The translations under genes and the position numbers were made by a program. Shown one piece after another: positions 42,722-64,000 of a stretch of DNA of 64,000 nucleotides. The DNA lies in contig JAKOWB010000441.1 in assembly GCA_029781795.1 (NCBI GenBank), forward strand, positions 1 through 64,000. Direction: 5' to 3'. Under the pieces are notes generated by a model. That model worked only from the letters and a program-made list of their open reading frames with translations. It searched no databases and was not told the origin of the DNA. Origin of the DNA: Pseudomonadota bacterium. GTDB lineage: Bacteria > Pseudomonadota > Alphaproteobacteria > Kiloniellales > JACOMY01. The stretch's first letter is position 1; every line of letters starts with the position of its first letter.

Positions 42722-43639
42722 TCAGTCGTTCAGCGTCGGCAGGATTCCAACCAGCGGAAGCAGTGCGCGGGCCTCGGTGATGACCGAACGCAGGTGCGCG
42801 CTGTCATTGTCGCGGTGGAAGGCGGCATAGAGGCGGTGCGCGGCGATCGGCGGATCCGCGGCCAGCACCCGCAAGGTCGACCACTGGCTTTCCAACGCCG
42901 GCATGATGGCGGGCAGCAGGGCGACGCCGAGGCCCGCGGCCGCTAGGCGCGCCATGATCCACAGGCTGTCGCAGGTGCCGAGCCGCTCGGGCCAGAGGCC
43001 GCTGGGGGCGAACCAGTCTCGCACGGAGGCAAAGAGGTGAGACGGTTCCGGGTTGGTGAGGATGCGGTGCCGCACGAGGTCGGCGGGCCTCACGGCGGCG
43101 CCGTCGCTGCCGAGGCCGAGCGACGGGGCGGCGACCCAGGCGACCTCTACAGATCCCATGGGCAGCATGACCAGCGAATCCGGCCCCTCGGGATTGGTCA
43201 GGAAGGCCAGGTCGAGTTCGCCTTCCAGCAGCCGGCGGTTGATCGAGCGGCTGAAAGCCACGCTGACCTCGACCTGCAGATTGGGATAGTCGGCGTCGAT
43301 GATCGACAGCAGCCGTGGCAGGCAGCCGTGCGCGAAGATGTCGGCGGTGCCGAGGCGCAGCAAGTGCCGGGCCGGTTCGGCATCGCGTCCATAGCGCTCG
43401 ATCGTGCCGGCCAGCGACAGGAGCTGTTCGACCTGGTGCCTGAGAGCGGCGCCGTGCCGGCTGGGACGAAGGCGTCGCCCCGCCCGCTCGAAAAGGGCAA
43501 CGCCGAGGTTCTTCTCCAGCTCCTGCAGGCGCAGTGTGACGGTCGGCTGGGTCAGGTTGAGATGCTCCGCCGCCGCCCGGACGCTGCCGTAGCGCAGGGT
43601 CCAGTAGAAGGCTTCGAACTGGGGCAGGGAGGCACGCAT
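42722..43639 (-). CDS. LysR-family transcriptional regulator
   Basis: The 305-residue protein has an N-terminal winged helix (FEAFYWTLRYGSVRAAAEHLNLTQPTVTLRLQELEK in two blocks, with the recognition helix TQPTVTLRLQ) and a periplasmic-binding-like effector domain from about residue 90. It is divergent from the hydantoinase operon and probably activates it in response to the substrate or an intermediate. A perfect palindrome (43642-43656) sits 3 bases upstream of its start codon, a likely autoregulatory site. The start ATG 43639 has only a weak ribosome-binding site. Confidence 0.92.
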   Translation of the reverse strand: MRASLPQFEAFYWTLRYGSVRAAAEHLNLTQPTVTLRLQELEKNLGVALFERAGRRLRPSRHGAALRHQVEQLLSLAGTIERYGRDAEPARHLLRLGTADIFAHGCLPRLLSIIDADYPNLQVEVSVAFSRSINRRLLEGELDLAFLTNPEGPDSLVMLPMGSVEVAWVAAPSLGLGSDGAAVRPADLVRHRILTNPEPSHLFASVRDWFAPSGLWPERLGTCDSLWIMARLAAAGLGVALLPAIMPALESQWSTLRVLAADPPIAAHRLYAAFHRDNDSAHLRSVITEARALLPLVGILPTLND

Positions 43640-43641
43640 TA

Positions 43642-43656
43642 ATAAGGAAACCTTAT
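43642..43656. promoter_or_regulatory. Likely LysR-type operator
   Basis: ATAAGG-AAA-CCTTAT is a perfect 6-base inverted repeat with a 3-base centre, and it contains a T-N11-A pattern typical of LysR recognition sites. It lies in the divergent space between the LysR gene and the hydantoinase operon, next to the LysR start. A nearby AT-rich stretch (43655-43690) may contain the promoters. Confidence 0.6.
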
Positions 43657-43862
43657 CATATTCAGCATGATGTTCTAATTGGATTTAATGAGTTGGCCTT
43701 TCTAGCCTTGCTCTCGGAAGGACGGGGAAACGGGCGAGCCCCCGGCTGGGTCCTTGGCGATTGCCGGGTTCTGGCTGGGGTCGGTCCCCGGCCTTCCGCT
43801 CAATTCTGGACGGACCGCCACGGACAGGTCAGAGCCGCCGCGGCGGGCGGGAGCGCAGCGCT

Positions 43863-49310: not shown

Positions 49311-49338
49311 CGGCGCGCAGCCCGGTTCACGCGGGGGG

Positions 49339-50334
49339 TCAGTGACCCCGCTTGGCGCGGTAGTCGGCCAGGATCTTGGAGCCGGCCTCGCCGGCCTTGG
49401 CTTCCCATTCGGCCGTCGCCTGGGCGCCGGCAGCGGACAGTGCCTGCAGGAACTCCGGCGGCATGTTGTCGACCACCGTGACGCCGGCCGCCCGCATGGC
49501 CGCGTAGTTCTCGGCCTCGCGGCTGACGGCGCGCTCCCAGATCATCGCCTCGGTCTCGGCCGCGGCCTCGCGCACCGCTGCCTGCTGCTCGGGCGTGAGC
49601 GCGTCCCAGGCATCCTTGTTGATGTGCACGATGCTGAGCGGCGAGGCGTAGTTGATCTCGTTGTAGTGGCTCAGCAGGTCGGCGAACTTGTTGTGGAACC
49701 CGCCCTCCGCCGAGGTCAGCACAGCCTCGATGCCGCCGGTGGTGAGCTGCGGCACCACGTCGGTGAAGCTGAGCGTGATGGGCGCGGCGCCGGCCGCTTC
49801 GAAGGTCATCTGGCCCAGCGGATCGTAGGTGCGGATCTTCAGGCCCTTCAGCGCCTCCAGCGAAGAGACTTCCTTCTTCGCCCAGATGCCCGAGGCGGTC
49901 CAGGGAATGGTGTAGAGCAGCACCATGTTGTCGGCCGCCAGCGTCGCCTCATAGACCGGCTTGGCGGCCTCATAGAGCAGCTTGGCGTCGGCGATGCTGG
50001 ACGTCAGGAATGGCAGGGCACTGACCTGCCAGATAGGGCTGAGGCCGACCAGCGGGCCCGTGTAGCTGTCGGCCAGGATCAGCGCGCCCGAGCTGACCGC
50101 GTCGTACTGGTCCTTGGTCTTGTAGCCGAGCGATCCGCCGAAGTGGACCGTGATCTCGATGGCACCGCCGGTCTTGGCCTTCACCGCCTCGGCAAAGGCC
50201 AGGTCGGCGATTCCGGTCAGCGAGGTCTGGGCCTGCTCGGTCGGCAGGTCCCATTGCATCTCCGCCTGGCTCGGCACGGCGCAAACAGCAAGCGCCGCAG
50301 CCAGGGCAGCGGTCTTCATAAGCCTCCAATTCAT
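49339..50334 (-). CDS. TRAP transporter solute-binding protein (DctP family)
   Basis: The 331-residue periplasmic protein has a signal peptide (AALAAALAVCAVPSQAEM) and the DctP fold. The features are GADLY-like positions in SSGALILADSYTGPLVG, the specificity-helix region LKGLKIRTYDPLGQMTFEAAGA with the conserved Arg that binds a carboxylate, and TGGIEAVLTSAEG. Substrates are usually organic acids. It is convergent with the amidohydrolase and divergent from dctQ/dctM, with which it forms one transporter. GGGAGA lies 8-9 bases before ATG 50334. Confidence 0.92.
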   Translation of the reverse strand: MNWRLMKTAALAAALAVCAVPSQAEMQWDLPTEQAQTSLTGIADLAFAEAVKAKTGGAIEITVHFGGSLGYKTKDQYDAVSSGALILADSYTGPLVGLSPIWQVSALPFLTSSIADAKLLYEAAKPVYEATLAADNMVLLYTIPWTASGIWAKKEVSSLEALKGLKIRTYDPLGQMTFEAAGAAPITLSFTDVVPQLTTGGIEAVLTSAEGGFHNKFADLLSHYNEINYASPLSIVHINKDAWDALTPEQQAAVREAAAETEAMIWERAVSREAENYAAMRAAGVTVVDNMPPEFLQALSAAGAQATAEWEAKAGEAGSKILADYRAKRGH

Positions 50335-50436
50335 GACACGATCTCCCGACGTGTGTCATGGACGGGGCGATGTCAACGGGCGAGCGGTTCGGTCCCCGAT
50401 CCGCGGGAGCAACGCTAGCGACGATGCGCCCTGCAG

Positions 50437-50492
50437 GTCAACAGGCTCGCGTTGACAGGCCCGCGTTGACAGGCCCGCGTTGACAGGCCCGC
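50437..50492. repeat. Four tandem 14-base units containing TTGACA
   Basis: The unit GTTGACAGGCCCGC occurs three times exactly (50451-50464, 50465-50478, 50479-50492), preceded by a diverged unit GTCAACAGGCTCGC (50437-50450). Each exact unit carries the -35 consensus TTGACA, so up to three -35 elements are spaced 14 bases apart in the divergent space between dctP and dctQ. Confidence 0.95.
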
Positions 50493-50609
50493 CCGACGCG
50501 CGCCAAATTCCGCCGCTCGCTCATCTCTGCCGCCGATCCAGCGGGATCGGTGCCTCTGCAACTCGCGGCGCCGCCGGCGCGCGACATGACAAGGGAGCGG
50601 GCATCACCC

Positions 50610-51164
50610 ATGTCGGTCTTCAAGCGCTTGGTAGCCGGCTACAGCGCGGCGATGCGGCGGGCCGCCGGGCTCTTCGCCGTCCTCGCCGCGGCCGCGCTGG
50701 TGGCAATGCTGCTGCAGGTGCTCTACGAGGTCGCGCTGCGCGCCTTCGCCGGCCGCTCGACCGGCATCGCCGACGAGTTCGTTGGCTACGAGGTGGCGGC
50801 GGCCAGTTTCTTCGGCCTGGCCTACGCGCTGGAGCGACAGGCGCTGATCCGGGTGATGCTGCTCGGCCGCCTTGCCGAGCGCCGCCCGGCGGTGGGCCGT
50901 CTGCTCGAGGCTTTCGCCATCCTGGCGACGCTTGCCGCCTTCGCCCTGGTGATCCGCTATTTCTGGTCCAGCGTGGCGCGCCACTGGGTCCGCGGCACGG
51001 TCAGCGAGACCATCGCCGAGGTGCCGATGTGGATTCCCGAGGGCGCCATGCTGCTCGGCATGACGGTCTTCTGGCTGGCGTTGCTGGCGCGCCTGCTGCG
51101 GCTTCTGGCTGGAGAGCCGCCGCACCTCGGTGGCGCCTCCGGCGCGCTGGCGGGCGAAGGCTGA
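50610..51164 (+). CDS. TRAP transporter small membrane subunit (DctQ family)
   Basis: The 184-residue protein has four hydrophobic segments (LFAVLAAAALVAMLLQVLYEV, YEVAAASFFGLAYALERQA, AILATLAAFALVIRYFW, GAMLLGMTVFWLALLARLL in order) and the DctQ-like LYEVALRAF / DEFVGY region. It scaffolds the large membrane subunit, which starts 10 bases after its stop. ATG 50610 is chosen over the in-frame ATG 50586 on ribosome-binding-site spacing (GGGAG). A 14-base tandem repeat with TTGACA units lies upstream. Confidence 0.85.
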   Translation: MSVFKRLVAGYSAAMRRAAGLFAVLAAAALVAMLLQVLYEVALRAFAGRSTGIADEFVGYEVAAASFFGLAYALERQALIRVMLLGRLAERRPAVGRLLEAFAILATLAAFALVIRYFWSSVARHWVRGTVSETIAEVPMWIPEGAMLLGMTVFWLALLARLLRLLAGEPPHLGGASGALAGEG

Positions 51165-51174
51165 GGGCGGGTCG

Positions 51175-52491
51175 ATGGAAGCCTTGCAGGCGGGCGCGCT
51201 GACGCTGCTGCTGATCGTCTTCTTCCTGGGCGCGGGGATCTGGGTCTTCTCCGGCCTGCTGCTGGTCGGCATCGCCGCGCTGGTGCTGGTGCTGGGCTAC
51301 CCGCTCGATCGCGTCGGCAACATCCTGAAGGGCATCATGTGGCGCTCGGCCAGCAGCTGGGAGCTGTCGGCCATCCCGCTCTTCGTGCTGATGGGCGAGA
51401 TCATCTTCCGCACCGACCTGTCGGAGCGCATCTTCCGCGGCCTGTCGCCCTGGCTGAACTGGCTGCCGGGGCGGCTGCTGCACACCAACATCGCCGGCTG
51501 CACCATCTTCGCAGCCGTCAGCGGCTCCAGCGCGGCGACCACCGCCACGATCGGCAAGATCACCGCCGGCGCGCTGCTGGAGCGCGGCTACAACCCCGAC
51601 CTCGCCATCGGCTCGCTGGCAGGCGCCGGCAGCCTGGGCCTGCTGATCCCGCCGTCGATCGTGATGATCATCTACGGCATCCTGGCCGAGGTCTCGATCG
51701 CCCGGCTTTTCGCCGCCGGCATCCTGCCGGGGCTGATGGTCGCCGCGCTCTACTCCGGCTACATCATGCTGCGCGGCCTGCTGAACCCGCGGCTGGCGCC
51801 ACAGGCTGCCGTGCGCTTCACCCTGGCCGACCGGCTGCGCGGGCTCCTCGACCTGCTGCCCGTCGGCTTCCTGGTGGTCGCGGTGCTGGGCGGGATCTAC
51901 AGCGGCATCGCTACGCCGTCGGAGGCGGCGGCCCTCGGCTGCGGGGCGACGGCGCTGATCACCCTGGCGATGCGCCAGCTCCGCTGGTCGGTGCTGCGCG
52001 ATGCGCTGATGAGCACGGTGGTCACCTCCTCGATGATCGTCTCGATCGTGGTCTGTGCCGCCTTCCTCTCCTCCGCCATGGGCTACATCCATCTGCCGCA
52101 GGACCTCGCCGCGGCGATCGCCGGCCTCGAGCTGGGGCCCTTCGGCCTGATGCTGATCCTGGCGCTGTTCTACATCGTGCTGGGGCTCTTCCTGGACGGC
52201 TTCTCCATCACGGTTATGAGCCTGCCGATCACCCTGCCGCTGGTCGTGCAGGCCGGCTGGGATCCGCTCTGGTTCGGCGTCTTCCTGGTCATCATGGTCG
52301 AGCTGGCGCAGATCACCCCGCCGATCGGCTTCAACCTCTTCGTGCTGCAGGGCCTGACGGGCTGGTCGATCTATCGCATCGCGCGGGCGGCGCTGCCCTT
52401 CTTCCTGCTGCTCTGCCTGGCGGCCGCGCTGCTGACGCTGCTGCCGCAGATCGCGCTCTGGCTGCCGGGACAGCTTTGGCAGGGGCGGTGA
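51175..52491 (+). CDS. TRAP transporter large membrane subunit (DctM family)
   Basis: The 438-residue protein is the ion-coupled translocating subunit, with about 11-12 transmembrane helices. DctM signatures include IPLFVLMGEIIFRTDLSERIF, the AAVSGSSAATTATIGKI discontinuous helix that forms the Na+/substrate site, LLIPPSIVMIIYGIL, and TPPIGFNLFVLQGL. Together with the DctP protein encoded divergently it imports a carboxylate-type solute, plausibly the substrate of the neighbouring hydantoinase cluster. Its end faces the end of the metalloenzyme gene on the other strand, with a CCGGCGC/GCGCCGG palindrome between them. Confidence 0.93.
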   Translation: MEALQAGALTLLLIVFFLGAGIWVFSGLLLVGIAALVLVLGYPLDRVGNILKGIMWRSASSWELSAIPLFVLMGEIIFRTDLSERIFRGLSPWLNWLPGRLLHTNIAGCTIFAAVSGSSAATTATIGKITAGALLERGYNPDLAIGSLAGAGSLGLLIPPSIVMIIYGILAEVSIARLFAAGILPGLMVAALYSGYIMLRGLLNPRLAPQAAVRFTLADRLRGLLDLLPVGFLVVAVLGGIYSGIATPSEAAALGCGATALITLAMRQLRWSVLRDALMSTVVTSSMIVSIVVCAAFLSSAMGYIHLPQDLAAAIAGLELGPFGLMLILALFYIVLGLFLDGFSITVMSLPITLPLVVQAGWDPLWFGVFLVIMVELAQITPPIGFNLFVLQGLTGWSIYRIARAALPFFLLLCLAAALLTLLPQIALWLPGQLWQGR

Positions 52492-52519
52492 AGACGGCTC
52501 CGGCGCGGCGCCGGCCGCG

Positions 52520-53563
52520 TCAGCCCAGTTCGCGCGTCATCGCGTCATGCAGCGCCATCAGGTGGGCGGGGCCGACCATCCGGCCTTCCTCGGCCAGCTT
52601 CTCGTTCCCCAGCCAGAGGGTCTGGTCGTAGACGATGCCGTCGGGGTGGTTCTCGCCGCCGCCCGGCTCCCACCAGGGCAGGCCCATGCCGATGGCGTTG
52701 GAACCCGGGACTCGGATGTCCTCGATGAAGTTCTGGCCGGTGAACTTGGTGCCCGGGTGGAAGCCACAGGTGAAGTGGATGAAGTAGCCGTAGTCGCCGG
52801 TGCCGCTGGCGCGCCGCAGCGCGCGATCGAAGCTCGGCCGGTCCTCGGTGCCGCCGCCGCTGAAGCCCTTGATCTTGCCCTCGACCTCGATGGCGATCGG
52901 CCGGCGCAGCGCGCGGTGATACTCGTCGAACAGCGCCTGGATGACGATGGTGCCGCTGACGCTTTCCTTCACCGGATAGAAGCTCTGGGTGCCGGGGACG
53001 GTGTGCATGCCGGGCGCATCGGCGACGCGGGCCCGGCGCGGCTGCTTCTCGGCCAGGGTGAAGGTGACGTCGGTGCCGAGCGGGCAGGTGAAGCGCATCG
53101 GCTGTCCGGCCTTGCTGGCCAGGTATTCGGCGAAAGCGACGTTGAAGTCCATCATCGCGCCGAAGTCGACGTTGCCGTAAAGCCGCTCGAAGGCCTCGGC
53201 GCTGGCCAGCGCCAGCAGGGCATAGCGGCAGCGCCCGCCCTTCATGGCGGCGTCGTGCGCGCCCGATCCCGCGTGGTAGGGGAAGCAGAAGTCCAGCCAC
53301 ACGTCCGAGGCGACGGCGGCGGCGCGCAGCGAGTCGGAAACGTAGGGATCCGACAGGCCGCCCTGGAAGGGAATCTGCGGCGCGACGGCGATCAGCGGCT
53401 TGCCGCCGGCCCGCAGCACGCTGCTGCCGACCGCGTCGAGCAGGGCCGGCTCGGTTCGCGTGTCGGCGCTGATCAGCACCGACTCGCCCGGACGCACCGC
53501 GAAATGCTGGACGACCAGCGCATCGGCGGCGTTGTTCAACCTCTTGTGCGAGAGCAGCGGCAT
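52520..53563 (-). CDS. NicX / M29 aminopeptidase superfamily metalloenzyme
   Basis: The 347-residue protein shares the two-domain layout of the superfamily that unites M29 aminopeptidases and the iron enzyme 2,5-dihydroxypyridine 5,6-dioxygenase (NicX). The landmarks are an N-terminal VRPGESVLISADTRTEPALLDAV segment, CPLGTDVTFTLAEKQPR, SGTIVIQALF, IAIEVEGKIKGFSGG, and C-terminal His residues in FTCGFHPG and GGGENHPDGIVYDQ. Sequence alone does not decide peptidase versus dioxygenase; the neighbouring Rieske ferredoxin and hydrolases make a catabolic dioxygenase worth testing. ATG 53563 is chosen (GAAGGA upstream); ATG 53614 is an alternative. Confidence 0.7.
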   Translation of the reverse strand: MPLLSHKRLNNAADALVVQHFAVRPGESVLISADTRTEPALLDAVGSSVLRAGGKPLIAVAPQIPFQGGLSDPYVSDSLRAAAVASDVWLDFCFPYHAGSGAHDAAMKGGRCRYALLALASAEAFERLYGNVDFGAMMDFNVAFAEYLASKAGQPMRFTCPLGTDVTFTLAEKQPRRARVADAPGMHTVPGTQSFYPVKESVSGTIVIQALFDEYHRALRRPIAIEVEGKIKGFSGGGTEDRPSFDRALRRASGTGDYGYFIHFTCGFHPGTKFTGQNFIEDIRVPGSNAIGMGLPWWEPGGGENHPDGIVYDQTLWLGNEKLAEEGRMVGPAHLMALHDAMTRELG

Positions 53564-53656
53564 GGCGCGCGATCCTTCGTGAAGTGACGATGCCGAATAA
53601 TACATTTGTATCATTCGCGTGACCTTGGCAAGCGGGCAGCGCGTCTTCGCTTTCTC

Positions 53657-54286
53657 TCAGGGTGCGGTGAAGGCGAGCAGCGGCTCGATCTGCTGGAAGA
53701 TCCGGCGGGGCCGCGTGCGGGCGGGATTGAGGCTCCACTCCAGCCACAGGCCTTTCAGCAGCGCGACGATCAGCTGGGTGCGCTGGCGCAGCGAGGCCGC
53801 CGGGACGTCCGCGCCGGCGGCGGCGCGCAGCAGCCGGGCGACGCGCGTCTCGAAGCGGCCATAGATCTCGTCGTGCACCTGGCGCACGGCGGCGTTGGTG
53901 TGGGTCAGGCCCCAGAAGAGAAACCGCGCGCGGACATAGTCGGCGCGCAGGATGGGCGCCCCCAGCCCGGCGCTCAGAAAGGCGCGCAGCCGCGCGGCCG
54001 GGTCCTCGCCGGCGGCGGCCATGGCGCGCTCGGCCTCCTCCTGCAGCAGCAGCGAGAGATGGCGATAGGTCGCCGCCAGCAGCGCGTCCTTGCCGCCGAA
54101 GTGGTGCCGGATCATGCCGAGGGAGAGGTCGGCGGCCGTGGCGATGCGCCGGACAGTCGCGCGTTCGACCCCGTGGCGGATCAGGCAGGCCAGCGTCGCC
54201 TCGACAAGACGCTGCTTCTGTTGATCCGGCGGCAGGCGCCGATAGGGCTTGCGGCGTGTCTCGGCCTGGCCGGTCTTGCGCGTCAT
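53657..54286 (-). CDS. TetR/AcrR-family regulator (BetI-like)
   Basis: A 209-residue protein. The N-terminal helix-turn-helix is ATLACLIRHGVERATVRRIA ... LSLGMIRHHFGGKDALLAATYRHL (in blocks), close to the BetI pattern, and the ligand-binding C-terminal domain has WGLTHTNAAVRQVHDEIYGRF. It lies upstream of and co-directional with the metalloenzyme gene (94 bases apart) and divergent from the ABC transporter, either of which it may control. An AT-rich tract at 54345-54380 in the divergent space is a likely promoter/operator area. Confidence 0.9.
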   Translation of the reverse strand: MTRKTGQAETRRKPYRRLPPDQQKQRLVEATLACLIRHGVERATVRRIATAADLSLGMIRHHFGGKDALLAATYRHLSLLLQEEAERAMAAAGEDPAARLRAFLSAGLGAPILRADYVRARFLFWGLTHTNAAVRQVHDEIYGRFETRVARLLRAAAGADVPAASLRQRTQLIVALLKGLWLEWSLNPARTRPRRIFQQIEPLLAFTAP

Positions 54287-54436
54287 CTGCCCGTCATGCC
54301 GTCACTCCGGCCTTTCGCCCCACCCACGCACAGCATCATCCCAATCGATCCGCACATAAAAATTATCGATTTGAGTTATGGCGCTCCAGACCTCTTGAAT
54401 GCTCCTGCCGTCGAGGGTGAAGGCCGCGCAAGCGAC

Positions 54437-54547
54437 CCGCCGCCCGGCGGTCGAGGACGCCGCAGAGCGTCCCGCGAAGATCGCGGCAGGCTCGTCGCAA
54501 CGAGCAGCCCCCAGGATCCAAGTCTCGGCTTGCAAGGGCCGCGCGGC
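54437..54547. other. Run of consecutive perfect hairpins, possible structured RNA
   Basis: Five short perfect inverted repeats follow one another: CCGCC-GCCC-GGCGG (54437-54450), GGACGC-CGCAGA-GCGTCC (54455-54472), CGCGA-AGA-TCGCG (54473-54485), GCTCGT-CGCA-ACGAGC (54490-54505) and GCCGCGCGGC (54538-54547). The 317-base space between the TetR gene and the ABC permease gene holds no convincing gene; both strands have open frames, but neither reads like a protein. This may be a structured RNA, a leader of the ABC operon or a dispersed repeat. The tract at 54345-54380 is AT-rich and promoter-like. Confidence 0.5.
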
Positions 54548-54618
54548 AAGGCCGTCGCGCCCAAGGGGGAAGGCTTGCCTGCCGCCAGGTCGCCTGGGGT
54601 TCGATGGAGGGCTCGCGC

Positions 54619-55671
54619 ATGTCGCGTGCTGGGACAGCCTTGCGGGGAAGCGGCGAAACGGGTGCACGGACGGCGCCGCCGGCGGTGCAGTTCCTGCGCC
54701 GCTCGTTCATCGGGAACGGGATCCTGCCCGTGGCGCTGCTGCTGGCCGTCGTGGGCTTCGGGCTGTCGGCGCCGCGCTTCCTGACCTACGACAACCTCTT
54801 CAACGTCGCCCGGCACTCCAGCTACCTCATCGTCGTCTGCCTGGGCCAGATGCTGACCCTGCTGGAGCGCGGCATCGACATGTCGGTCGGCTCCACCGTC
54901 GCCCTGGTCAGCGTCACCACCGCCCTGGCCGGCGCCGCCGTGCTGGCCGCCGATCCCGAGGCCGTGGGCCTCGCCATCGCCGCCGCCATCGCCGCGGGCC
55001 TGGCCACCGGCGCCGCCGTCGGACTGGTCAACGGCATCGGCATCGCCCTCTTCCGCGTCAATCCCTTCATCATGACCGTGGGCATGCTCTCCATCCTCAC
55101 CGGCCTCGCCCTCACCATCAGTGGCGGCATGCCGGTCTACGGCCTGCCCGACGCCTTCGGCCGCCTGCTCGCCTACAGCGCACCCCTCGGCGTGCCGGTC
55201 CCCATGCTGCTCGCCGCCGCCCTCGCCGTCGTCATGGCCTACCTGCTCTACATGACCCCCTTCGGGCGACGCATCTACGCCCTCGGCGGCAACCAGCTCG
55301 CCGCGCGCCTGGCCGGCATCAACACCACCCTCACCCTCGTCCTCACCTACGTCCTCTGCTCAAGCATCGTCGCCTTCGCCGCCGTCCTGCTCACCGCACG
55401 CGTCGCCACCGGCGAGGCCACCCTCGGCGCCACCCTGGTCCTGGAGTCCATCACCGCCGTCGTCATCGGCGGCGTCTCCTTCTTCGGCGGCATCGGGCGC
55501 CTCTCCCACGTCGTCCTCGGCGCCCTCTTCGTCACCATGATGACCAACGGCATGAACCTGCTGCGCGTCGAGAGCTACGTCCAGCAGATCGTCCTCGGCG
55601 CCCTGCTCATCGCCGCCGTCGTCGTCGACCAGCTGCGCATGCGCCTGCTGCGCCAGCAGCGCGCGGAGTAG
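54619..55671 (+). CDS. Sugar-type ABC transporter permease (RbsC-like)
   Basis: The 350-residue protein has about 8-10 membrane helices of the BPD_transp_2 family (ribose/xylose-type importers): IVVCLGQMLTLLERGIDMSVG, NPFIMTVGMLSILTGLAL, FGRRIYALGGNQLAARLAGI and VLGALFVTMMTNGMNLL. GGAGGG lies 8 bases before ATG 54619. Codon use from about 54880 onward strongly favours CTC, ATC and GTC, whereas neighbours favour CTG; this persists through the ATPase gene and suggests separate ancestry. No periplasmic binding protein is encoded next to it. Confidence 0.9.
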   Translation: MSRAGTALRGSGETGARTAPPAVQFLRRSFIGNGILPVALLLAVVGFGLSAPRFLTYDNLFNVARHSSYLIVVCLGQMLTLLERGIDMSVGSTVALVSVTTALAGAAVLAADPEAVGLAIAAAIAAGLATGAAVGLVNGIGIALFRVNPFIMTVGMLSILTGLALTISGGMPVYGLPDAFGRLLAYSAPLGVPVPMLLAAALAVVMAYLLYMTPFGRRIYALGGNQLAARLAGINTTLTLVLTYVLCSSIVAFAAVLLTARVATGEATLGATLVLESITAVVIGGVSFFGGIGRLSHVVLGALFVTMMTNGMNLLRVESYVQQIVLGALLIAAVVVDQLRMRLLRQQRAE

Positions 55672-55677
55672 ACCGGC

Positions 55678-56481
55678 ATGACACTCGCCCTCGCCACAGA
55701 GCCCACCCAGGCCCCAGCCACCCAGGCCACAGCCATCCAGACCCCGCTCCTCCAGGCCAGCGACATCGTCAAGACCTTCGGCGGCAACAAGGCCCTCGCC
55801 GGCGTCTCCCTCGACGTGCGCCACAACGAGGTCCTCGCCCTGGTCGGCGACAACGGCGCCGGCAAGTCCACCCTGGTCAAGATCCTCTCCGGCGCCGAGA
55901 CCCCAGACAGCGGCGCCATCGCCATCGAGGGCAGGACGCACCACATCGCCTCGCCGCAGGACGCGCTCGCCGCCGGCATCGCCACGCTGCACCAGCACCT
56001 CGGCCTGGTCGACTGCTTCAACGTCCCGCAGAACGTCTTCCTCGGCCGCGAGCTCTCGACCCGCGTCCTCGGCCTCTTCCCCAGGCTGCTGCACGCCCGC
56101 ATGCTGCAGGAGACCCGGCGCCTGCTGGCCGAACTCGACATCCGACTGCCCCACCTCGACAGGCCCGTCTCAACCATGTCCGGCGGGCAGCGACAGGCCG
56201 TCGCCATCTCCAGGCTCCTGCTCGGCGACACCAGGCTCATCATCATGGACGAGCCCATGGCCGCACTCGGCGTCAACGAGGGTCAGAAGGTCCTCGACCT
56301 CATCCAGCGTCTCGCCGCAAAGGGCATCTCCTTCCTCATCATCTCCCACAACCTCGAACACGTCATGTCGATCTCTAGCCGCGTCGCCGTCCTCAAGAAC
56401 GGTCGACTCGTCGGGGCCGTCGACACCAACAAGACCTCACGCCAGGACATCACGTCCATGATCGTCCATGGCAGGACCTAG
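55678..56481 (+). CDS. Sugar-type ABC transporter ATP-binding protein
   Basis: The 267-residue protein has a single nucleotide-binding domain: Walker A GDNGAGKSTLVK, the Q loop near LHQHLG, signature TMSGGQRQAVAI, Walker B LIIMDEPMAAL, and the switch His in ISHNLEHV. It resembles the N-terminal half of the duplicated RbsA/XylG type or the single-domain FrcA/RbsA-like ATPases. It follows the permease gene by 6 bases and shares its unusual C-ending codon preference (CTC, ATC). The N-terminal 25 residues are a Thr/Ala/Pro-rich extension. M20 peptidase starts 3 bases after it. Confidence 0.92.
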   Translation: MTLALATEPTQAPATQATAIQTPLLQASDIVKTFGGNKALAGVSLDVRHNEVLALVGDNGAGKSTLVKILSGAETPDSGAIAIEGRTHHIASPQDALAAGIATLHQHLGLVDCFNVPQNVFLGRELSTRVLGLFPRLLHARMLQETRRLLAELDIRLPHLDRPVSTMSGGQRQAVAISRLLLGDTRLIIMDEPMAALGVNEGQKVLDLIQRLAAKGISFLIISHNLEHVMSISSRVAVLKNGRLVGAVDTNKTSRQDITSMIVHGRT

Positions 56482-56484
56482 GCC

Positions 56485-57612
56485 ATGACCGCGCCCGACG
56501 CCGTCGCGCTGACCCAGTCGCTGGTGCGCCTGCGGTCGATCAATCCGCCAGGCGAGGAGCAGGCCTGCGCCGAGCTGCTGGGAGGCCTGCTGCAGGACGC
56601 CGGCTTCACGGTGGCGCGCTTCGACCATGCGCCGAGGCGGCCGAGCCTGGTGGCGCGGCTGGACGGCAGCGCAGGGGCGCCGCCGCTCTGCTTCACCGGG
56701 CACCTCGACACCGTGCCGCTGGGCGCCACGCCCTGGAGCCGCGATGCCTTCGCCGCCGAGATCGACGGCGACCGGCTCTATGGCCGCGGCAGCAGCGACA
56801 TGAAGAGCGGCGTCGCCGCCATGGTGGTGGCGGCGATCGCGGCGGCGCGGGCGGGGCGCGGGCGCGGCGGCCTGGCCCTGGTGCTGACCGCGGGCGAGGA
56901 GACCGGCTGCGACGGCGCCAAGCACCTTGCCGGCCTCGGCGATGCGCTGCCGGCGGCCGCCGCGCTGCTGGTTGGCGAACCCAGCTCGAACTACCCGCTG
57001 GTCGGCCACAAGGGGGCGCTCTGGCTGCAGGCGGAGTTCAAGGGCGTGACCGCGCACGGCTCCATGCCGGAGAAGGGCGACATCGCGGTCTACAAGGCGG
57101 CCAAAGGCGCGCTGCGCCTCGCCGAGTACCGCTTCGCCGCGCAGCCGCACCGCATCCTTGGCTATCCCACGATCAACGTCGGCACGCTGCAGGGCGGCCT
57201 CAACGTCAACTCGGTGCCGGACCGCGCCACGCTCGGCATCGACGTGCGCACGGTCCCGGGCCAGGGCAACGACGAGGTCTGCGACGAGCTGACCGCGCTC
57301 TTCGAGCCCGGCAGTGGCCTGCAGCGCCAGGTCGACGTCGGCTTCGTCGCCAGCGACCCGCGCGATCCCTGGATCCAGGAGGTCTTCCAGCTCTGCGCCG
57401 CGGCGCTGGGCGAGGCGCCCGAGCCGCGCGGCGCCAGCTACTTCACCGACGCCTCGGTACTGACGCCGGCCTTCGGCGGGGTGCCGACGCTGGTGCTGGG
57501 CCCCGGCGAGGCGGCCATGGCGCACAAGACCGACGAGTACTGCCTGGTCTCGCGCATCCATCAGGCGGTCGAGCTCTACGGCGCCATCGCCAGCCGCTGG
57601 CTGGCGCACTGA
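56485..57612 (+). CDS. M20-family metallopeptidase (ArgE/DapE-like)
   Basis: The 375-residue di-zinc hydrolase of the ArgE/DapE/ACY1 group has metal ligands in CFTGHLDTVPLG and GRGSSDMKSGVAAMV, the catalytic Glu in LTAGEETGCDG, VGEPSSNYPLVGHKGALW, and a dimerisation domain with GGLNVNSVPDRATLGIDVRT in two parts. It probably removes an acyl group from an amino acid or peptide-like substrate. It starts 3 bases after the ABC ATPase gene and lies with hydrolase, ferredoxin and deformylase genes. Codon use returns to the CTG-rich pattern of the chromosome here. Confidence 0.9.
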   Translation: MTAPDAVALTQSLVRLRSINPPGEEQACAELLGGLLQDAGFTVARFDHAPRRPSLVARLDGSAGAPPLCFTGHLDTVPLGATPWSRDAFAAEIDGDRLYGRGSSDMKSGVAAMVVAAIAAARAGRGRGGLALVLTAGEETGCDGAKHLAGLGDALPAAAALLVGEPSSNYPLVGHKGALWLQAEFKGVTAHGSMPEKGDIAVYKAAKGALRLAEYRFAAQPHRILGYPTINVGTLQGGLNVNSVPDRATLGIDVRTVPGQGNDEVCDELTALFEPGSGLQRQVDVGFVASDPRDPWIQEVFQLCAAALGEAPEPRGASYFTDASVLTPAFGGVPTLVLGPGEAAMAHKTDEYCLVSRIHQAVELYGAIASRWLAH

Positions 57613-57622
57613 GGGCAGGGGC

Positions 57623-58516
57623 ATGGCCGTCACCGGGTTGCAGTATCCGCTGGTCGCCGAGGGCAGGGCGCTGCGCGCCGTGCAGTGGGGCCTGGCTGGC
57701 GAGACTGTGCTGATGCTGCATGGCCTTGGCTCACGCGCCGAGACCTTCGAGCCGGTCGGCCGCCGCCTCGCCGAGCAGGGCTACCGCTGCGTCGCGCTGG
57801 ACCTGCCGGGGCACGGCCTGTCGTGGAAGGGCGGCGACTTCGACTACAGCGCCGCCGGGCACGCGCGGCTGCTGCGCGCGGTCGTTGCGCAACTCGGCGC
57901 GCCCTGCCACCTGGTCGCCTCCTCGCTCGGCGGGCTGCATGCCGCGGCCTATGCCGTGGCGGCGCCGGAGACGCTGCGCTCGCTGACCCTGATCGGCAGC
58001 ATCGGCCTCAAGGCCCTGGCGCCGCAGCGCCGGCAGTGGACCGCCGACTACCTGAAGGACATGAGCCGCGGGGCCATCGCGCGGCGCTTTACCTTCGCCG
58101 TCAGCGATCCCGCCATCTTCGACGCGGCCTACATCGAGGAGTCCTGGCGGGTGAACGTCTCGCCTGGCGCCGCCGAGTCCTTCGCAGCGATTGGCCGCTA
58201 CTACCTGGAGCGCATCAACGACGACGTGCAGACGCCGGCGCTGGCCGCGCTGGGCGGGCGCCTGCCGATTCTTCTGCTCTGGGGCCGGGACGATGCCACC
58301 GTGACACTGGACGCCGCCGAGGACGCGCTGGCGGCCATTCCCGGCAGCGCACTGGCGATCCTTGCGGGTACCCGACACATTCCGCATCTGGAACAGCCGG
58401 CGCTGGCCGCGGCCTGCCTCGCCGCGCACCTGGCGGGCGATGCCGGACGCCTCGGCCGCCTGTCGGCGCCGACGCTGGAGATCCGCCGGCATGGCAGCCC
58501 GGCGCGCCAACCCTAG
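57623..58516 (+). CDS. Alpha/beta hydrolase
   Basis: The 297-residue protein has the oxyanion strand VLMLHGLGSRAET, ALDLPGHGLS, a nucleophile elbow VASSLGGLHAA (nucleophile Ser), the acid in LLLWGRDDATV, and the catalytic His in GTRHIPHLEQP. It resembles meta-cleavage-product hydrolases (MhpC/BphD-like) and haloperoxidase-type enzymes. The elbow reads A-S-S-L-G rather than the common G-x-S-x-G. It starts 10 bases after the M20 gene and is followed by the Rieske ferredoxin, an arrangement found in aromatic catabolic operons. Confidence 0.88.
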   Translation: MAVTGLQYPLVAEGRALRAVQWGLAGETVLMLHGLGSRAETFEPVGRRLAEQGYRCVALDLPGHGLSWKGGDFDYSAAGHARLLRAVVAQLGAPCHLVASSLGGLHAAAYAVAAPETLRSLTLIGSIGLKALAPQRRQWTADYLKDMSRGAIARRFTFAVSDPAIFDAAYIEESWRVNVSPGAAESFAAIGRYYLERINDDVQTPALAALGGRLPILLLWGRDDATVTLDAAEDALAAIPGSALAILAGTRHIPHLEQPALAAACLAAHLAGDAGRLGRLSAPTLEIRRHGSPARQP

Positions 58517-58527
58517 GAGCATTCAGC

Positions 58528-58842
58528 ATGACTTGGTACCGTGCCGCCGCCGTGGCGGACCTCGAGGGACGCGGCGTCCTCGGCATCGAGATCGACGAGG
58601 CGCAGGTGGCGCTCTACCGCGTCGATGGCGCCTACTACGCCACCGACAACATCTGCACCCACCAGCATGCCTTCATGTCGGACGGCTACCTCGACAAGGC
58701 CTGCATCGAGTGCCCGCTGCACCAGGCGCTGTTCGACGTGCGTACTGGCGAGGTGCTGGACGGACCCGCCAGCGAGCCGCTGGCCACCTATCCCGTGAAG
58801 GTCGAGGGTGACGAGATATTCGTCGACCTGCCGGCCCGCTGA
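58528..58842 (+). CDS. Rieske-type [2Fe-2S] ferredoxin
   Basis: The 104-residue protein has a complete Rieske site: CTHQHAFMS and CIECPLHQALFD provide the Cys-X-His and Cys-X2-His ligands. Size and sequence match ferredoxin components of ring-hydroxylating dioxygenases (BphF/NahAb-like), which pass electrons from a reductase to the oxygenase. No oxygenase large subunit or reductase is in this window, so its partner is unknown; a NirD-like role is a less likely alternative. TAGGAGC lies 8 bases before ATG 58528. Confidence 0.92.
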   Translation: MTWYRAAAVADLEGRGVLGIEIDEAQVALYRVDGAYYATDNICTHQHAFMSDGYLDKACIECPLHQALFDVRTGEVLDGPASEPLATYPVKVEGDEIFVDLPAR

Positions 58843-58864
58843 ACCGAGAGGCGAAGGAGCTGCC

Positions 58865-59446
58865 ATGAGCCAGTCGAGCATCCTCAAGCTGGGTAACGAG
58901 AAACTGCTGCGTCCTTCGGTCCCGGTGGCCGATCCCACCGCGCCGGACATCAAGGCGCTGCTGGCTCGCATGCAGCACGAGCTGGATCTGGTCGGCGGCA
59001 TCGGCCTGGCCGCTCCGCAGCTCGACGACCACCGGCGGGTCATCCTCTTCTGCCTGCCGGCGCACCGCATTCCGGCCGGTGCCAGAACGCAGCCCGAGCC
59101 GCCGACCGCGGTGATCAACCCGGTGCTGGAGCTGCTGGGCGAGGACGCGCGGCCGATCTGGGAACGCTGCCTCTCGCTGCCGGGCCTCTATGGCCGGGTG
59201 AAGCGCCACAACCACATCCGCCTGACCTTTCAGACGACCGAGGGCAAGACCGTGGTGCGCGAGTTCCGCGGCTACCTCGCCATGCTGCTGCAGCACGAGT
59301 ACGACCACCTGGAGGGCCTGCTCTATCCCATGCGGATGGAAAAGCTGAGCGACCTCGCCTACGCCTCCGAACTGCCGCTGGTGAATGGCCTCTTCGCCTA
59401 TTCGCCCGAGGAGTTCGACGGCACGGCGCCGGGCGCCGCGGCCTAG
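58865..59446 (+). CDS. Peptide deformylase-like protein
   Basis: The 193-residue protein has the three deformylase motifs in order: GGIGLAAPQLD (motif 1), WERCLSLPGLYG (motif 2, with Arg where standard enzymes have EGCLS), and LLQHEYDHLEGLLY (motif 3, HEXXH-type metal site). The metal Cys and both His residues are kept. Being in a catabolic/transport cluster away from fmt, and having the altered motif 2, it is probably a secondary deformylase, either a backup for protein maturation or one acting on a small N-formyl compound. ATG 58865 is chosen with AAGGAG upstream. Confidence 0.88.
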   Translation: MSQSSILKLGNEKLLRPSVPVADPTAPDIKALLARMQHELDLVGGIGLAAPQLDDHRRVILFCLPAHRIPAGARTQPEPPTAVINPVLELLGEDARPIWERCLSLPGLYGRVKRHNHIRLTFQTTEGKTVVREFRGYLAMLLQHEYDHLEGLLYPMRMEKLSDLAYASELPLVNGLFAYSPEEFDGTAPGAAA

Positions 59447-59459
59447 CGGCGGCAGCGCC

Positions 59460-60293
59460 ATGCTGATGCGCTTCATCGCGGCCGGCGGCGTGCCGACGCG
59501 CTGCCTCGTCGCCGGTGATCCGGGCAAGCCGGCGCTGCTGTTGCTGCACGGCCTGACGCTGACCGCCGACGTCTGGCTGCGCAACATCGACGCGTTGGCG
59601 GCGGACTTCCACGTCATCGCGCCGGACATGCTGGGGCATGGCTTCACCCGGCCGCCAGACGACCGCCCGCCCGGCATCGAGGAGAAGCTGGCGCACCTGC
59701 TGGCGCTGGCGGATGCCCTGGGCCTGGAGCGCTTCTCCCTCGACGGCAGCTCCTATGGCGCGCTGATCGCCGCCAACCTGGCGCTGCGCGCGCCGGCGCG
59801 CGTGACGCGGCTGGTGATCACCGGCAGTGGCTCCTGCTTCAACAGCGAGGCCGACCTGTCGGTCTTCATGGAGCGGCTTTGGAACACCTACAGCCGGGAC
59901 CTCGAGACCATGTCACCGGCCGACTGGCGCCAGCGGCTCGCCGGCACGGTGCATGACCTTGCCTCGGTGCCGGCAGAACTGCCGGCCTTCCTGGCGCTCT
60001 GCTATGCGCAGCCCTGGATTCGGCCCTGCTGGGAGCGGACCATCGGCGACCTGCGCGAGTCGGCGCGCTTCCGCCCCTTCCGCATCCTCGACCGGCTGGA
60101 ACAACTGGTACTGCCGACGCTGGTGGTTTGGGGCCGGCAGGACCGCGGCGGCGTCTATGAGAGCGCCCAGGCGGCGACCGCCCGCCTGCCGCATGGCCGC
60201 ATCGAGGCTTTCGAAGACTGCGCCCATGTGCCGATGCTGGAGGTGGCGGGCCCTTACAACTTGCTTGTAACAAACTTCTTGCTCGAGGATTAG
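59460..60293 (+). CDS. Alpha/beta hydrolase (meta-cleavage hydrolase-like)
   Basis: The 277-residue protein has LLLLHGLTLTADVW, APDMLGHGFTRPP, the nucleophile elbow DGSSYGALIAA (G-x-S-x-G), the acid in VVWGRQDRGG, and the catalytic His in CAHVPMLE. It is like MhpC/BphD-type C-C hydrolases. It starts 14 bases after the deformylase-like gene and ends the co-directional run that begins with the ABC transporter. Two different alpha/beta hydrolases in one operon with a Rieske ferredoxin suggest sequential hydrolytic steps in catabolism. Its AT-richer 3' end (about 60255-60295) borders the repeat region. Confidence 0.88.
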   Translation: MLMRFIAAGGVPTRCLVAGDPGKPALLLLHGLTLTADVWLRNIDALAADFHVIAPDMLGHGFTRPPDDRPPGIEEKLAHLLALADALGLERFSLDGSSYGALIAANLALRAPARVTRLVITGSGSCFNSEADLSVFMERLWNTYSRDLETMSPADWRQRLAGTVHDLASVPAELPAFLALCYAQPWIRPCWERTIGDLRESARFRPFRILDRLEQLVLPTLVVWGRQDRGGVYESAQAATARLPHGRIEAFEDCAHVPMLEVAGPYNLLVTNFLLED

Positions 60294-60473
60294 CTAGGCA
60301 AGATCTGCTGGCGGATTTGGCCAAACCCGCCTGCAACTCGCGCTGTCCCTGTTCGTGGCGGGCTGTTTCCCTGTTCAGCATTGAAGGGAAATGACCGCGA
60401 GACACGCAAAGCGTCGACGATGCCGAGCGGCGCGAAAGCCCTCAATCCGTCGTGGAGCGGGTCGGCCCAGAAA

Positions 60474-60540
60474 GTTCCCTGAAACCAGGGAACCGTCCGG
60501 AGACCTGTTCGCTCCGGACTGTGTCCCCCACCATCCTTTC
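60474..60540. repeat. Two-hairpin repeat, copy 1
   Basis: Hairpin 1 is GTTCCCTG-AAAC-CAGGGAAC (60474-60493). Hairpin 2 is GTCCGGAG ... CTCCGGAC (60495-60502 with 60512-60519), with GTTCG in the loop. CCCCACCATCCTTTCC follows. The same layout occurs at 63917-63982 in the same orientation, beyond the E1 gene. Confidence 0.85.
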
Positions 60541-60560
60541 CAGACGAACCGGAGTCCCGG
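60527..60560 (+). repeat. Direct repeat copy 2 (tRNA-Lys 3' end plus flank)
   Basis: 32 of 34 bases match 42409-42442, the first 25 without a mismatch. Here the bases before CCCACCA do not form a tRNA. It marks the right end of an 18-kb candidate island that begins at tRNA-Lys. Confidence 0.85.
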
Positions 60561-60858
60561 CGATAGAGGGGCACAAATCCCGCGACACCGCGCGTTTCGG
60601 TGCGGCCGGCCCATCTGCGGCGCTCGGCTTGTCTGCGGACCCCACCGAAGCCAGGAGAGTCACTGGATGACGTGAGGGCTGCCGCGATCCCTCTGAACGA
60701 GCCCTTCGCCCGGCGGCACGCGCCCGGGTGCAGCGTCCCCTCATCGAGGCGGGCCGCCGTTTCAATTCACCCGATGAACTCAGAATCCAGAATCTCGACG
60801 CATGCCGCCCTGAATAGGTACTTTCCGGATCGTTGCAGAGGACAGTCCAGGGCAGGCC

Positions 60859-63549
60859 ATGACCTTTCCACCGCTCGGCGGCGACAACGCGTGTTTCTTG
60901 GACCTCTATGCTCGCTATCTCAAGGACCCGGCGTCGGTGCCCGCGGACTGGCGGGTGAGATTCGCCGAACTGGATGGGCCCTCGACCCTGATCGCCGACG
61001 ATGGCGAGCGCGTTGCAGACCTGTTTCGCATCTATGGTCATCGCCAGGCCAGGTTGGATCCGCTCGGTCTCAACAATGGGGCTGCATGTCCGGAGCTTGG
61101 ACAGGTCCATGAGGGACCGAGCAGCATAAGAGTCACGCTGGCGGGCCGGACGAGCGAGCTTCCACGCCAGGAAGCCATCGACCGCTTCTCGGCGGTCTAT
61201 TGTGGCAGCGCGGCCATCGAGGCGGGCCACATTTCCGACGCGAGGGATCGTGCGTGGCTGTTCGAGCGCTTCGAAGCCGAGATGACGGCGGTAGCCGACG
61301 AGGCGGTCCATGCCCGTACGCTCGAAGCCGTCTTGCTCGCCGACGCGTTCGAGAACTTCATCAAGACCAAATGGCCGACCAAGAAGCGCTTCGGGATGGA
61401 AGGGGCCGAGTCTTCGAGCGTCATCGCGCGGGAGATTTTCCGGTCAGCGGCGGGCGCAGGAATTCGAGAGGTCGTCATCGGGGGCATGCATCGCGGCCGT
61501 CTCGCGATGCTGGCCACCGTGCTGGGGAAGTCGCTGCCGGCGCTGATCGCCGAGATCAAGGGTAGAGACGCCACGGATGGCGACGTCGCCTTCACGGGCG
61601 ATGTCCCCTACCACAACGGCCTGGCTGCAACCGTCGAGTCGGGGGAAGGGCCGATCGATGTAAGGCTCTTGCCGCATCCGTCACATCTGATCGTCGTTGC
61701 GCCCGTGGCTGTCGGAGCTGCCCGGGGGCGCCAAGAAGCCAAGGCCGCGGAAGCCGGAAGCCTCGGCGGCCGGTCCCAGGTGCTGCCCTTCCTCATGCAC
61801 ACCGACGCTGCATTCGCCGGACAGGGCCTGGTGTGGGAGCTGTTTCAGCTGTCGGGCCTCGACGGATACAGCGTGGGCGGCACGGTCCATCTGGTCGTCA
61901 ACAATCAGATCGGCTTTACGACGCTTCCCTCCGAAGGGCGCTCTTCGCCCCATCCCAGCGATGTCGGAAAGGCCTTCGGCGTTCCCGTTCTCCATGTGAA
62001 TGGCGACGATCCCGTAGCCGCGGCGGCGGTGGCGCGTGTGGCGCTCGCGTGGCGCAACGCCACCGGCAAGGATGCGATCATCGACCTGGTCTGCTACCGC
62101 CGGAACGGGCACAACGAGCTGGACGAGCCGCGCTTCACCCAACCTACGATCTGGTCGCAGGTCGACGCGCGGCCGCCGCTGAAGCAGCTGTACACCGAGA
62201 CCGTGAGAGCGTCGTCGCCGCGCTCGCTCGACCAGGCGGAGGCCAGGCGATCGGCCTTCCACGATGCGCTGGTCCGTGCCTACGAGAGCTTCGACCAGGT
62301 ACGCCAGAATGCGGCAGAGACCGACATCTTCGCTCCGCCTCAGCCCCCGGGGCCCATGCCGTCGGACGTCGGAACGGGGGTCGAGCGCGACCGCCTGCTC
62401 GCGCTGACGCGCCTGATCGCGAACCTCCCTGCGGATCTCGTGCCAGACGGCAAGGTTCGCAGTTTTCTGAACGCCCGCCTGCAATCTGTCGAGCAGGACA
62501 GCGGCTTCAACATCGCGACGGCCGAGGCCCTCGCATTCGCAACGCTCCTGGACGAAGGCACGTCGGTGCGCCTGAGCGGACAGGACAGCGTGCGCGGGAC
62601 CTTCACGCAAAGGCACCTCGCCGTGCACGATCAGGCGACCGGTCGTAAGGCCCTGCCGATCGCGCAGGCAGCGAAGGCAAACGCGCGCTTCGACGCGATC
62701 AATTCACCCTTGATCGAGTATGGCGTGCTCGGCTTCGAGTACGGCATGAGCCTTGCCGACCGCGACAGGCTGATCATCTGGGAAGCCCAGTTCGGCGACT
62801 TTCTCAACGGTGCCCAGGTCGTCGTCGATCAATTCATCGTCACGGCCGAAGCCAAGTGGAAGATGAGCTCCGGCTTGGTGATCGCGCTGCCGCATGGCCT
62901 TGAAGGGCAGGGCCCTGATCACTCGTCGGCCAGGATCGAACGCATACTTCAATCCTGCGCGGGCGGAAACGTGGTGGTCGCCAATCCGTCAACGCCGGCG
63001 AACATCTTTCACCTCTATCGCCGCCAGGTCCGCTCGCCGCTGCGAAAGCCGCTGTTCCTGATCGCGCCGAAGTCGTTGCTGCGCGTGAGAGAATGCAGCT
63101 CCAGGCTTGCAGAGATCGGCGCCGGTACGTCGTTCGTGCCGGTGATCGTCGATCCCCCGTTGTCGCAGAAGCCCTGCGGCAAGGTGATCCTGTGCTCGGG
63201 GAAGGTCGCGTACGGATTGAAGGCGGCGATCGCACAGGATGCCATCGATGACGTCGCGGTGCTGAGGATCGAGCAACTCTATCCCTTTCCGGCTGAGGAA
63301 GTGCTGGCCAGCCTCGGCCGCTTCCCGACCGCCCGGCTGGTGTGGTGCCAGGAAGAGCCGCGCAACCAGGGGGCCTGGTCCTTTGTCCGCGATTCGATCG
63401 GCGAGATCGCGCCGGACCGGACGCTTGCCTACGTCGGGCGGCCTGCCATGGCTGCGGCCGCCGGCGGGTCGATCGATCGCCATGAGGACGAGCAGGCCGA
63501 GATTATCCGGGCCGCCCTTTCACCGATGGCGCAGGCCGCCGCCGCCTGA
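60859..63549 (+). CDS. 2-oxoglutarate dehydrogenase E1-type protein, orphan paralogue
   Basis: An 896-residue TPP enzyme, somewhat shorter than usual SucA/OdhA (about 930-990). The N-terminal E2-interacting segment FLDLYARYLKDPASVPADW is kept. Core motifs include GGMHRGRLAML, NNQIGFTT, YRRNGHNELDEP, RLSGQDSVRGTFTQRH, HGLEGQGPDHSSARIERI and CQEEPRNQGAW. The usual GDVKYHLG reads GDVPYHNG, and IERILQ / GAWSFV segments also occur in 2-oxoadipate dehydrogenase. No sucB, lpd, sucC/D or sdh genes are adjacent. Codon use is less CTG/CGC-biased than neighbours, and the gene is bracketed by two-hairpin repeats. It may be a second 2-oxoacid dehydrogenase acquired by transfer. Confidence 0.88.
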   Translation: MTFPPLGGDNACFLDLYARYLKDPASVPADWRVRFAELDGPSTLIADDGERVADLFRIYGHRQARLDPLGLNNGAACPELGQVHEGPSSIRVTLAGRTSELPRQEAIDRFSAVYCGSAAIEAGHISDARDRAWLFERFEAEMTAVADEAVHARTLEAVLLADAFENFIKTKWPTKKRFGMEGAESSSVIAREIFRSAAGAGIREVVIGGMHRGRLAMLATVLGKSLPALIAEIKGRDATDGDVAFTGDVPYHNGLAATVESGEGPIDVRLLPHPSHLIVVAPVAVGAARGRQEAKAAEAGSLGGRSQVLPFLMHTDAAFAGQGLVWELFQLSGLDGYSVGGTVHLVVNNQIGFTTLPSEGRSSPHPSDVGKAFGVPVLHVNGDDPVAAAAVARVALAWRNATGKDAIIDLVCYRRNGHNELDEPRFTQPTIWSQVDARPPLKQLYTETVRASSPRSLDQAEARRSAFHDALVRAYESFDQVRQNAAETDIFAPPQPPGPMPSDVGTGVERDRLLALTRLIANLPADLVPDGKVRSFLNARLQSVEQDSGFNIATAEALAFATLLDEGTSVRLSGQDSVRGTFTQRHLAVHDQATGRKALPIAQAAKANARFDAINSPLIEYGVLGFEYGMSLADRDRLIIWEAQFGDFLNGAQVVVDQFIVTAEAKWKMSSGLVIALPHGLEGQGPDHSSARIERILQSCAGGNVVVANPSTPANIFHLYRRQVRSPLRKPLFLIAPKSLLRVRECSSRLAEIGAGTSFVPVIVDPPLSQKPCGKVILCSGKVAYGLKAAIAQDAIDDVAVLRIEQLYPFPAEEVLASLGRFPTARLVWCQEEPRNQGAWSFVRDSIGEIAPDRTLAYVGRPAMAAAAGGSIDRHEDEQAEIIRAALSPMAQAAAA

Positions 63550-64000
63550 TCCTCCGATTGGCCGCGTCGGGCGAACTTGGATCGCCGGGCCGTCGTCCTG
63601 CTGGCAAACCGCTCGCCCAACGATGTGGGCTTTGGGGGCGGATGCCGACGTTCGTACCCGTCCGTGCCCTCCACCGCGGCCCGCCTGTTCTTCGACCTGT
63701 CAGCGAAAGGGGGCCCATAGCGGTTTCGAAACCCGTCGCGTTCTCCCGCCTGCCACAGCCGACCGTGGTGCGGTCGGTCGAGACGCTCACAGGTTGCAGG
63801 TACGTCTATCGCGTTCCGGGCAAGACGACCTGTCGCGTGACTTGGAATGGTCCGGTCGCGCGATCTCGATCGGAACTGGGTTCATCGATCCGCCGCCCGG
63901 AGGATCTTCCCAGGAAGTTCCCTGGAAGCTGGGAACCTTGCGGAGGCCGGTTCGCCCATGACGGCCTCCACCACCATCCTCTTCCGCCAGTCCACTACCG
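63550..64000. other. Non-coding end of the window
   Basis: No convincing gene on either strand. Possible remnants include a plus-strand stretch near 63780-63900 reading CRYVYRVPGKTTCRVTWNG, too short and uncertain to assign. The second copy of the two-hairpin repeat lies at 63917-63982. No terminator with a T-run follows the E1 gene. Confidence 0.5.
63917..63982. repeat. Two-hairpin repeat, copy 2
   Basis: Hairpin 1 is GTTCCC-TGGAAGCT-GGGAAC (63917-63936). Hairpin 2 is GGAGGCC (63942-63948) with GGCCTCC (63963-63969), again with GTTCGC in the loop, followed by ACCACCATCCTCTTCC. The second stem differs in sequence from copy 1 on both arms, yet pairing is kept. Confidence 0.8.

Follow-up and report, generated by a model that had tools for sequence, protein, structure and literature searches.

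The window, i.e., the whole stretch of 64,000 nucleotides analysed here, contains an orphan 2-oxoglutarate dehydrogenase-like E1 gene enclosed by two similar repeats, which raises the question of what these repeats are and how the segment between them came to lie there. The two copies, designated A (60472-60536) and B (63915-63979), are present as the first-pass annotation had described them: 51 of 65 positions are identical in an ungapped alignment, with a local alignment score of 72 against a shuffle maximum of 35, and weak similarity between them extends upstream as far as 63834. Hairpin 1 (GTTCCC..GGGAAC) is exact in both copies, being formed in A by the plus-strand inverted repeat GTTCCCTG..CAGGGAAC at 60474-60493 and in B by positions 63917-63936. 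Each copy then ends in a stretch resembling the 3' end of a tRNA. In A this terminus spans 60498-60533 on the plus strand and reads CGGAGACCT-GTTCG-N16-CCACCA, with GTTCG at 60507; in B, which as a feature occupies 63915-63976 on the plus strand, GTTCG lies at 63950 and is likewise followed by N16-CCACCA. Exact matches to hairpin 1 in the 5.4-Mb assembly number two, namely A and B, and no third copy was found in this genome by blastn with A or B as query. The host genome is a fragmented assembly with an estimated contamination of 7.8%; A and B lie inside one contig.

The genes of the two proposed islands

The E1 gene (60859-63549, plus strand) encodes a full-length protein of 896 aa with the Pfam domains 2-oxogl_dehyd_N, E1_dh, Transket_pyr and OxoGdeHyase_C. 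It shares about 44-45% identity with every SucA of the order, including that of its own genome, which is encoded on another contig. By the first-pass annotation, fixation of the gene at this locus in relatives would have told against its reading; the gene is absent from all 62 order mates (63 genomes in all), each of which has its own SucA. Among named organisms the nearest SucA is that of Pelagibius (73%), so that the order is probably Kiloniellales. Its GC3 of 0.80 compares with 0.87-0.96 for its neighbours, and the 3.4-kb segment around it (60534-63976), which we propose to be the second of two islands, has a GC content of 0.65-0.66 against about 0.71. The orphan E1 is an acquired gene that is not fixed at this locus. 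The nearest parallel in layout was an orphan E1 of Azospirillum doebereinerae (L143:5974-8655; 893 aa, 44% identical), which lies in a cluster with a TRAP transporter, an acyl-CoA dehydrogenase and a CoA-transferase; that cluster suggests a catabolic role for such E1 proteins.

Upstream of this segment lies the proposed first island, which measures 18.1 kb (42416-60533) and carries catabolic genes according to Pfam and the list of open reading frames, i.e., LysR, hydantoinase A/B, a D-aminoacylase-like amidohydrolase, TRAP and sugar ABC transporters, and hydrolases. Downstream of its TRAP solute-binding gene we noted a 14-bp tandem repeat, ACAGGCYCGCGTTG, at 50441-50492. Pfam identified no integrase among the genes of either proposed island. 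Phage_integrase was not found on the contig of the window, all six hits in the genome being on other contigs.

A DNA signal common to related bacteria

Strict exact patterns retrieved no relatives of A and B from 62 genomes of the order and 384 of the class, which at first suggested a two-copy repeat. A profile search overturned that view. The covariance model called for by the first-pass annotation was built from A and B, i.e., from two sequences, with hairpin 1 as the sole structure included, and it retrieved many full-length matches in the same order (best E 3.5e-10), from which an alignment of 33 distinct copies in at least 13 genomes was made. Copies sharing a contig (G000, G019, G020, G021, G022, G024) always lie on one strand, 3.4-20 kb apart, and paired same-orientation copies like those of the window occur in five other genomes. 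No match to the family was found in Rfam at the copies in the window and at ten relatives' loci, in viral contigs by exact patterns, or in plasmids and phages by blastn, and none of the literature searched proved relevant to its sequence motif. A and B are thus copies of a previously unnamed DNA signal that is common to many related bacteria.

The family unit is about 190 nt long. It has TCCCTG repeats at intervals of 21-22 bp, then AGGGAA, ~80 nt of spacer, the inverted repeat TTCCCTG..CAGGGAA, and GAGAC..GTTCG-N16-CC-RCCA. Relative to GTTCG, the motifs are nearly fixed in position in 24 members, TCCCTG lying near -184, -163 and -142 and AGGGAA near -125 and -21; the intervals between neighbouring repeats were 21 bp in 37 cases, 22 bp in 5 and 11 bp in 10. 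Such intervals, being whole helical turns, suggest that the DNA is bound by a protein. The terminus reads ACCA or GCCA in 30 of the 33 copies, and the N16 spacing between GTTCG and CCA, which in A equals that of tRNA-Lys, is kept in the family. Copy A preserves most of the unit (60346-60533): its left part (60346-60473, plus strand) has TCCCTG twice in direct orientation, at 60346 and, 22 bp further on, at 60368, followed by AGGGAA at 60385. These three motifs lie at -161, -139 and -122 from GTTCG, within 1-3 nt of the family positions, and form the sole such array in the window. Only the last third is kept in B, where the TCCCTG array upstream is absent or has eroded. In five members (L181, L184, L191, L194, L203) a GGTTGCGNGCCCGGGATTTGAACCTG-like stretch lies ~190-235 nt upstream of the family core; with its look of a reversed tRNA 3' end at the left border of many members, it is possibly a second attachment core. 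Several contigs start or stop at or near family copies, i.e., at L212 (G019:C135) and on C70 and C181 of G019, which indicates that the family breaks assemblies and that short-read genomes will hide arrays.

The first-pass annotation had described compensatory changes in a second stem and concluded that structure matters, which would make the repeats a structured RNA, either cis-regulatory or small, kept for its fold. Two hairpins can be drawn in each copy, the second being an 8-bp inverted repeat of a kind that dinucleotide shuffles yielded in just 1.1% of cases for A and 0.4% for B, and the strand of A gives a better fold than most of its shuffles do (z -2.85). The second stems, however, are out of register in the ungapped alignment, columns 24-31 pairing with 41-48 in A and columns 28-35 with 48-55 in B, and two-sided changes amounted to no pairs in the register of A and to one pair, the chance level, in that of B. 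Covarying conserved secondary structure was absent both between A and B and among the 33 members, for which the RNAalifold consensus is a 4-bp stem of about -0.1 kcal/mol; B shows no folding advantage over shuffles (z -1.0), Rfam offers no match, and the genes preceding or neighbouring the copies have functions unrelated to one another. We therefore regard a structured RNA as highly improbable, and the compensatory changes did not survive the comparison.

Two known DNA elements were also considered. An EcfG-type promoter (GGAAC..GTT) was rejected on account of the spacing. Integron attC sites have R and L boxes (RYYYAAC/GTTRRRY) and a conserved imperfect hairpin, and are recombined by the integron integrase; judged by eye, GTTCCC..GGGAAC is not arranged like attC, and here the cargo is the size of an operon.

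Junctions with tRNA genes and the proposed tandem arrangement

A and B lie downstream of a tRNA-Lys(CTT) gene (42340-42415, plus strand; ARAGORN, Rfam), and the copies of relatives are tied to the flanks of tRNA-Lys, -Ser and -Met, so that the advice of the first-pass annotation to look for flanking tRNAs proved sound. Its observation that A overlaps a tRNA-Lys-derived repeat was also borne out: positions 60520-60592 match the 3' end of tRNA-Lys(CTT) and its downstream flank at 42403-42474. Starting in both cases from the first base after CCA, the sequence directly following the tRNA (42416-42474, plus strand; proposed left arm 1) and that following A, 18 kb further on (60534-60592, plus strand; proposed left arm 2), are identical at 45 of 59 positions, with an anchored score of 60 against a shuffle maximum of 25. 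Since the left part of A matches B, and its right part together with the following bases matches the tRNA-Lys flank, A is a chimera whose switch lies at the tRNA CCA. The copies are not degenerate tRNA-Lys 3' halves, their left parts being no more tRNA-like than shuffles.

We compared the bases after RCCA in 30 family copies with those after CCA in 35 tRNA genes, 29 of them tRNA-Lys. Eight of the 30 copies matched a tRNA-Lys, -Ser or -Met flank with scores of 39-104, against a shuffle maximum of 25: those of the window and G011 matched their own tRNA-Lys, that of G003 its own tRNA-Ser, and those of G030, G021 and G022, and G024 and G017 a tRNA-Lys, tRNA-Ser and tRNA-Met flank, respectively. 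The null was drawn from single random pairs, whereas every copy had 35 flanks to match, so that a score close to 25 carries little weight, and one copy with a score of 26 (L183) was left out; the eight matches stand well above this level. The G003 copy agreed with the flank of its tRNA-Ser 25 kb upstream at 107 of 115 nt (93%); the intervening unit contains ordinary metabolic genes and one IS240-type transposase, with no integrase among the ten proteins scanned. The base before CCA agrees with that of the matched tRNA in six of the eight copies and differs in L207 and L211. A clear match to the 35 flanks was absent in the remaining 22 copies, and the flank of B likewise matched none of them. 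In G058, G011 and G020 a tRNA lies upstream of a copy on the same strand and the flanks do not match. Overall, tRNAs upstream of family copies (five on the same strand, one on the opposite) are not clearly above background density, so that the case for tRNA linkage rests on the junction matches.

Taken together, these data make it probable that A and B are the right-hand ends of islands inserted at tRNA CCA ends, and that two such units stand in tandem behind tRNA-Lys(CTT) in the window. The order would be tRNA-CCA, left arm 1, 18.1 kb, A-ACCA, left arm 2, 3.4 kb with E1, B-ACCA and flank, with the tRNA, leftmost in the array, as the proposed attachment target. As in tRNA-targeted islands, an intact tRNA-Lys stands at one end, with the ACCA of A and a tRNA flank at the other, the displaced tRNA part being very short; the site-specific integrase that such an element would carry was not found on the contig. 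As in tandem accretion and CIMEs, the units are head-to-tail in the same orientation with common ends (tRNA-arm1...A-arm2...B). The flank occurs twice, behind tRNA-Lys and behind A, which agrees with a left arm common to both units, as expected from tandem accretion; alternatively, the native tRNA trailer may have been duplicated during insertion. We infer that the family units are mobile. A site-specific recombinase, or an accessory protein, would act in trans and bind the TCCCTG repeats, which are two helical turns apart, unless the recombinase has been lost, and RCCA would be, or adjoin, the crossover. The two units, now integrase-less, may have been piled up by successive integration. Neither an empty site nor an excised circle was seen, and no integrase tied to the family was found.

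Two other routes to this arrangement were weighed. The family could be a transposon-like end, or a non-autonomous MITE-like repeat preferring tRNA 3' ends or their surroundings, with the genes merely caught between two insertions. Copies are dispersed behind genes of unrelated function, two of them have an IS240-type DDE transposase nearby and a linked recombinase is lacking, all of which would suit such an element; yet same-contig copies always share orientation, the flanks after RCCA correspond exactly to those of tRNAs, no terminal inverted repeat was found, and a phased repeat array is atypical of simple transposon ends, making this origin unlikely. The second route is that suggested by the first-pass annotation, i.e., gain or loss of the 3.4 kb by recombination between direct repeats, which as ordinary duplication would involve homologous recombination between dispersed repeats and no site-specific recombinase. 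The segment does look gained, its E1 being unique among the 63 genomes and low in GC3; A and B are 78% identical direct repeats, and such repeats are multi-copy in relatives. Only two copies, however, are detectable in the genome itself, and the exact tRNA-CCA junctions, together with the fixation of copies at tRNA flanks across several genera, call for site-specific action at some stage. Duplication of this kind is distinctly unlikely; tRNA-linked islands with site-specific junctions fit the evidence better than general homologous recombination between a pair of repeats does.

tRNA-linked islands in relatives and in known systems

Throughout the order, tRNA-Lys(CTT) is a hotspot for islands. 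In relatives the gene follows rodA closely, the gap being about 85-250 bp in most, and displaced tRNA-Lys 3' halves occur 6-37 kb beyond it in G010, G015, G052, G057 and others, with tyrosine integrases adjoining one end of the islands. Two of these islands are tandem (G057:C1:1613137-1635632 and G052:C4:232520-267593), each with an integrase unit (16 and 33 kb, respectively) followed by a unit in which no integrase is detectable (6.1 and 1.6 kb), which parallels the arrangement of the window. The integrase-bearing islands of G010, G015, G052 and G057 use the same target tRNA and the same side as the window units. In them, however, the duplicated part of the tRNA runs from the anticodon region to CCA (~46-48 bp), whereas the window copies include only the last tRNA bases and the flank, and the right arms of those islands showed no similarity to the arms at A and B. 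Synteny with G001, the one member of the same taxonomic family compared, or with the tRNA-Lys loci of relatives is limited to genes upstream of the tRNA. What lies downstream of tRNA-Lys varies, and G001 is too distantly related to reveal an empty site.

The ssrA islands of Dehalococcoides are a further point of comparison: they are arranged in tandem, with a repeat that comprises 20 bp of one target gene and with a serine recombinase, about half of them lack an integration module, they carry metabolic cargo, and tandem accretion has been proposed for them (PMC3146451). The window resembles them in its tandem units behind an RNA gene, its short 3'-end repeats and a conserved motif directly upstream of the repeat (PMC3146451), but its family shares essentially RCCA only and is seen behind Lys, Ser and Met flanks, and no recombinase was found for it. 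In the ICE/CIME accretion of Pavlovic et al. (2004), as far as it is described in PMC3146451, integrase-less units keep their attachment sites and stack beside a mobile element, as the window units would; compared with that description, conjugation genes, integrase genes and an active element were not found beside them. Repeats of the final 20 bp of tRNA-Lys(ctt) mark an additive island at this gene in Methylophilaceae, and both this island and tycheposons resemble the window in having metabolic cargo at tRNA genes (PMC10872708). Tycheposons carry a tyrosine recombinase (PMC10872708), which the window units do not.

What sets the family apart from known tandem islands is one conserved, phased end-site behind several tRNA isotypes that have RCCA alone in common. 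Use of one end-site at several isotypes would be unusual because tRNA integrases normally rely on identity with one tRNA. As a tentative possibility, the family may belong to a new mobile system of this alphaproteobacterial order that moves metabolic cargo the size of an operon to the CCA ends of several different tRNA genes. It would do so through a phased end-site mimicking a tRNA 3' end (GTTCG-N16-CCA), in place of a long block of identity to one tRNA, with a recombinase supplied in trans. If the family does form island ends as proposed, a 190-bp sequence signature would mark the ends of metabolic islands throughout one bacterial order, integrase-less islands that are usually invisible to island finders would become mappable, and the question of how they move would become directly testable.

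Two further features of the window were noted. The 3.2 kb between rodA and tRNA-Lys (39153-42157) carry two minus-strand genes, one for a TPP-dependent enzyme and one for a fatty-acid hydroxylase, and a cobalamin riboswitch is present at 507-717 (100 bits).
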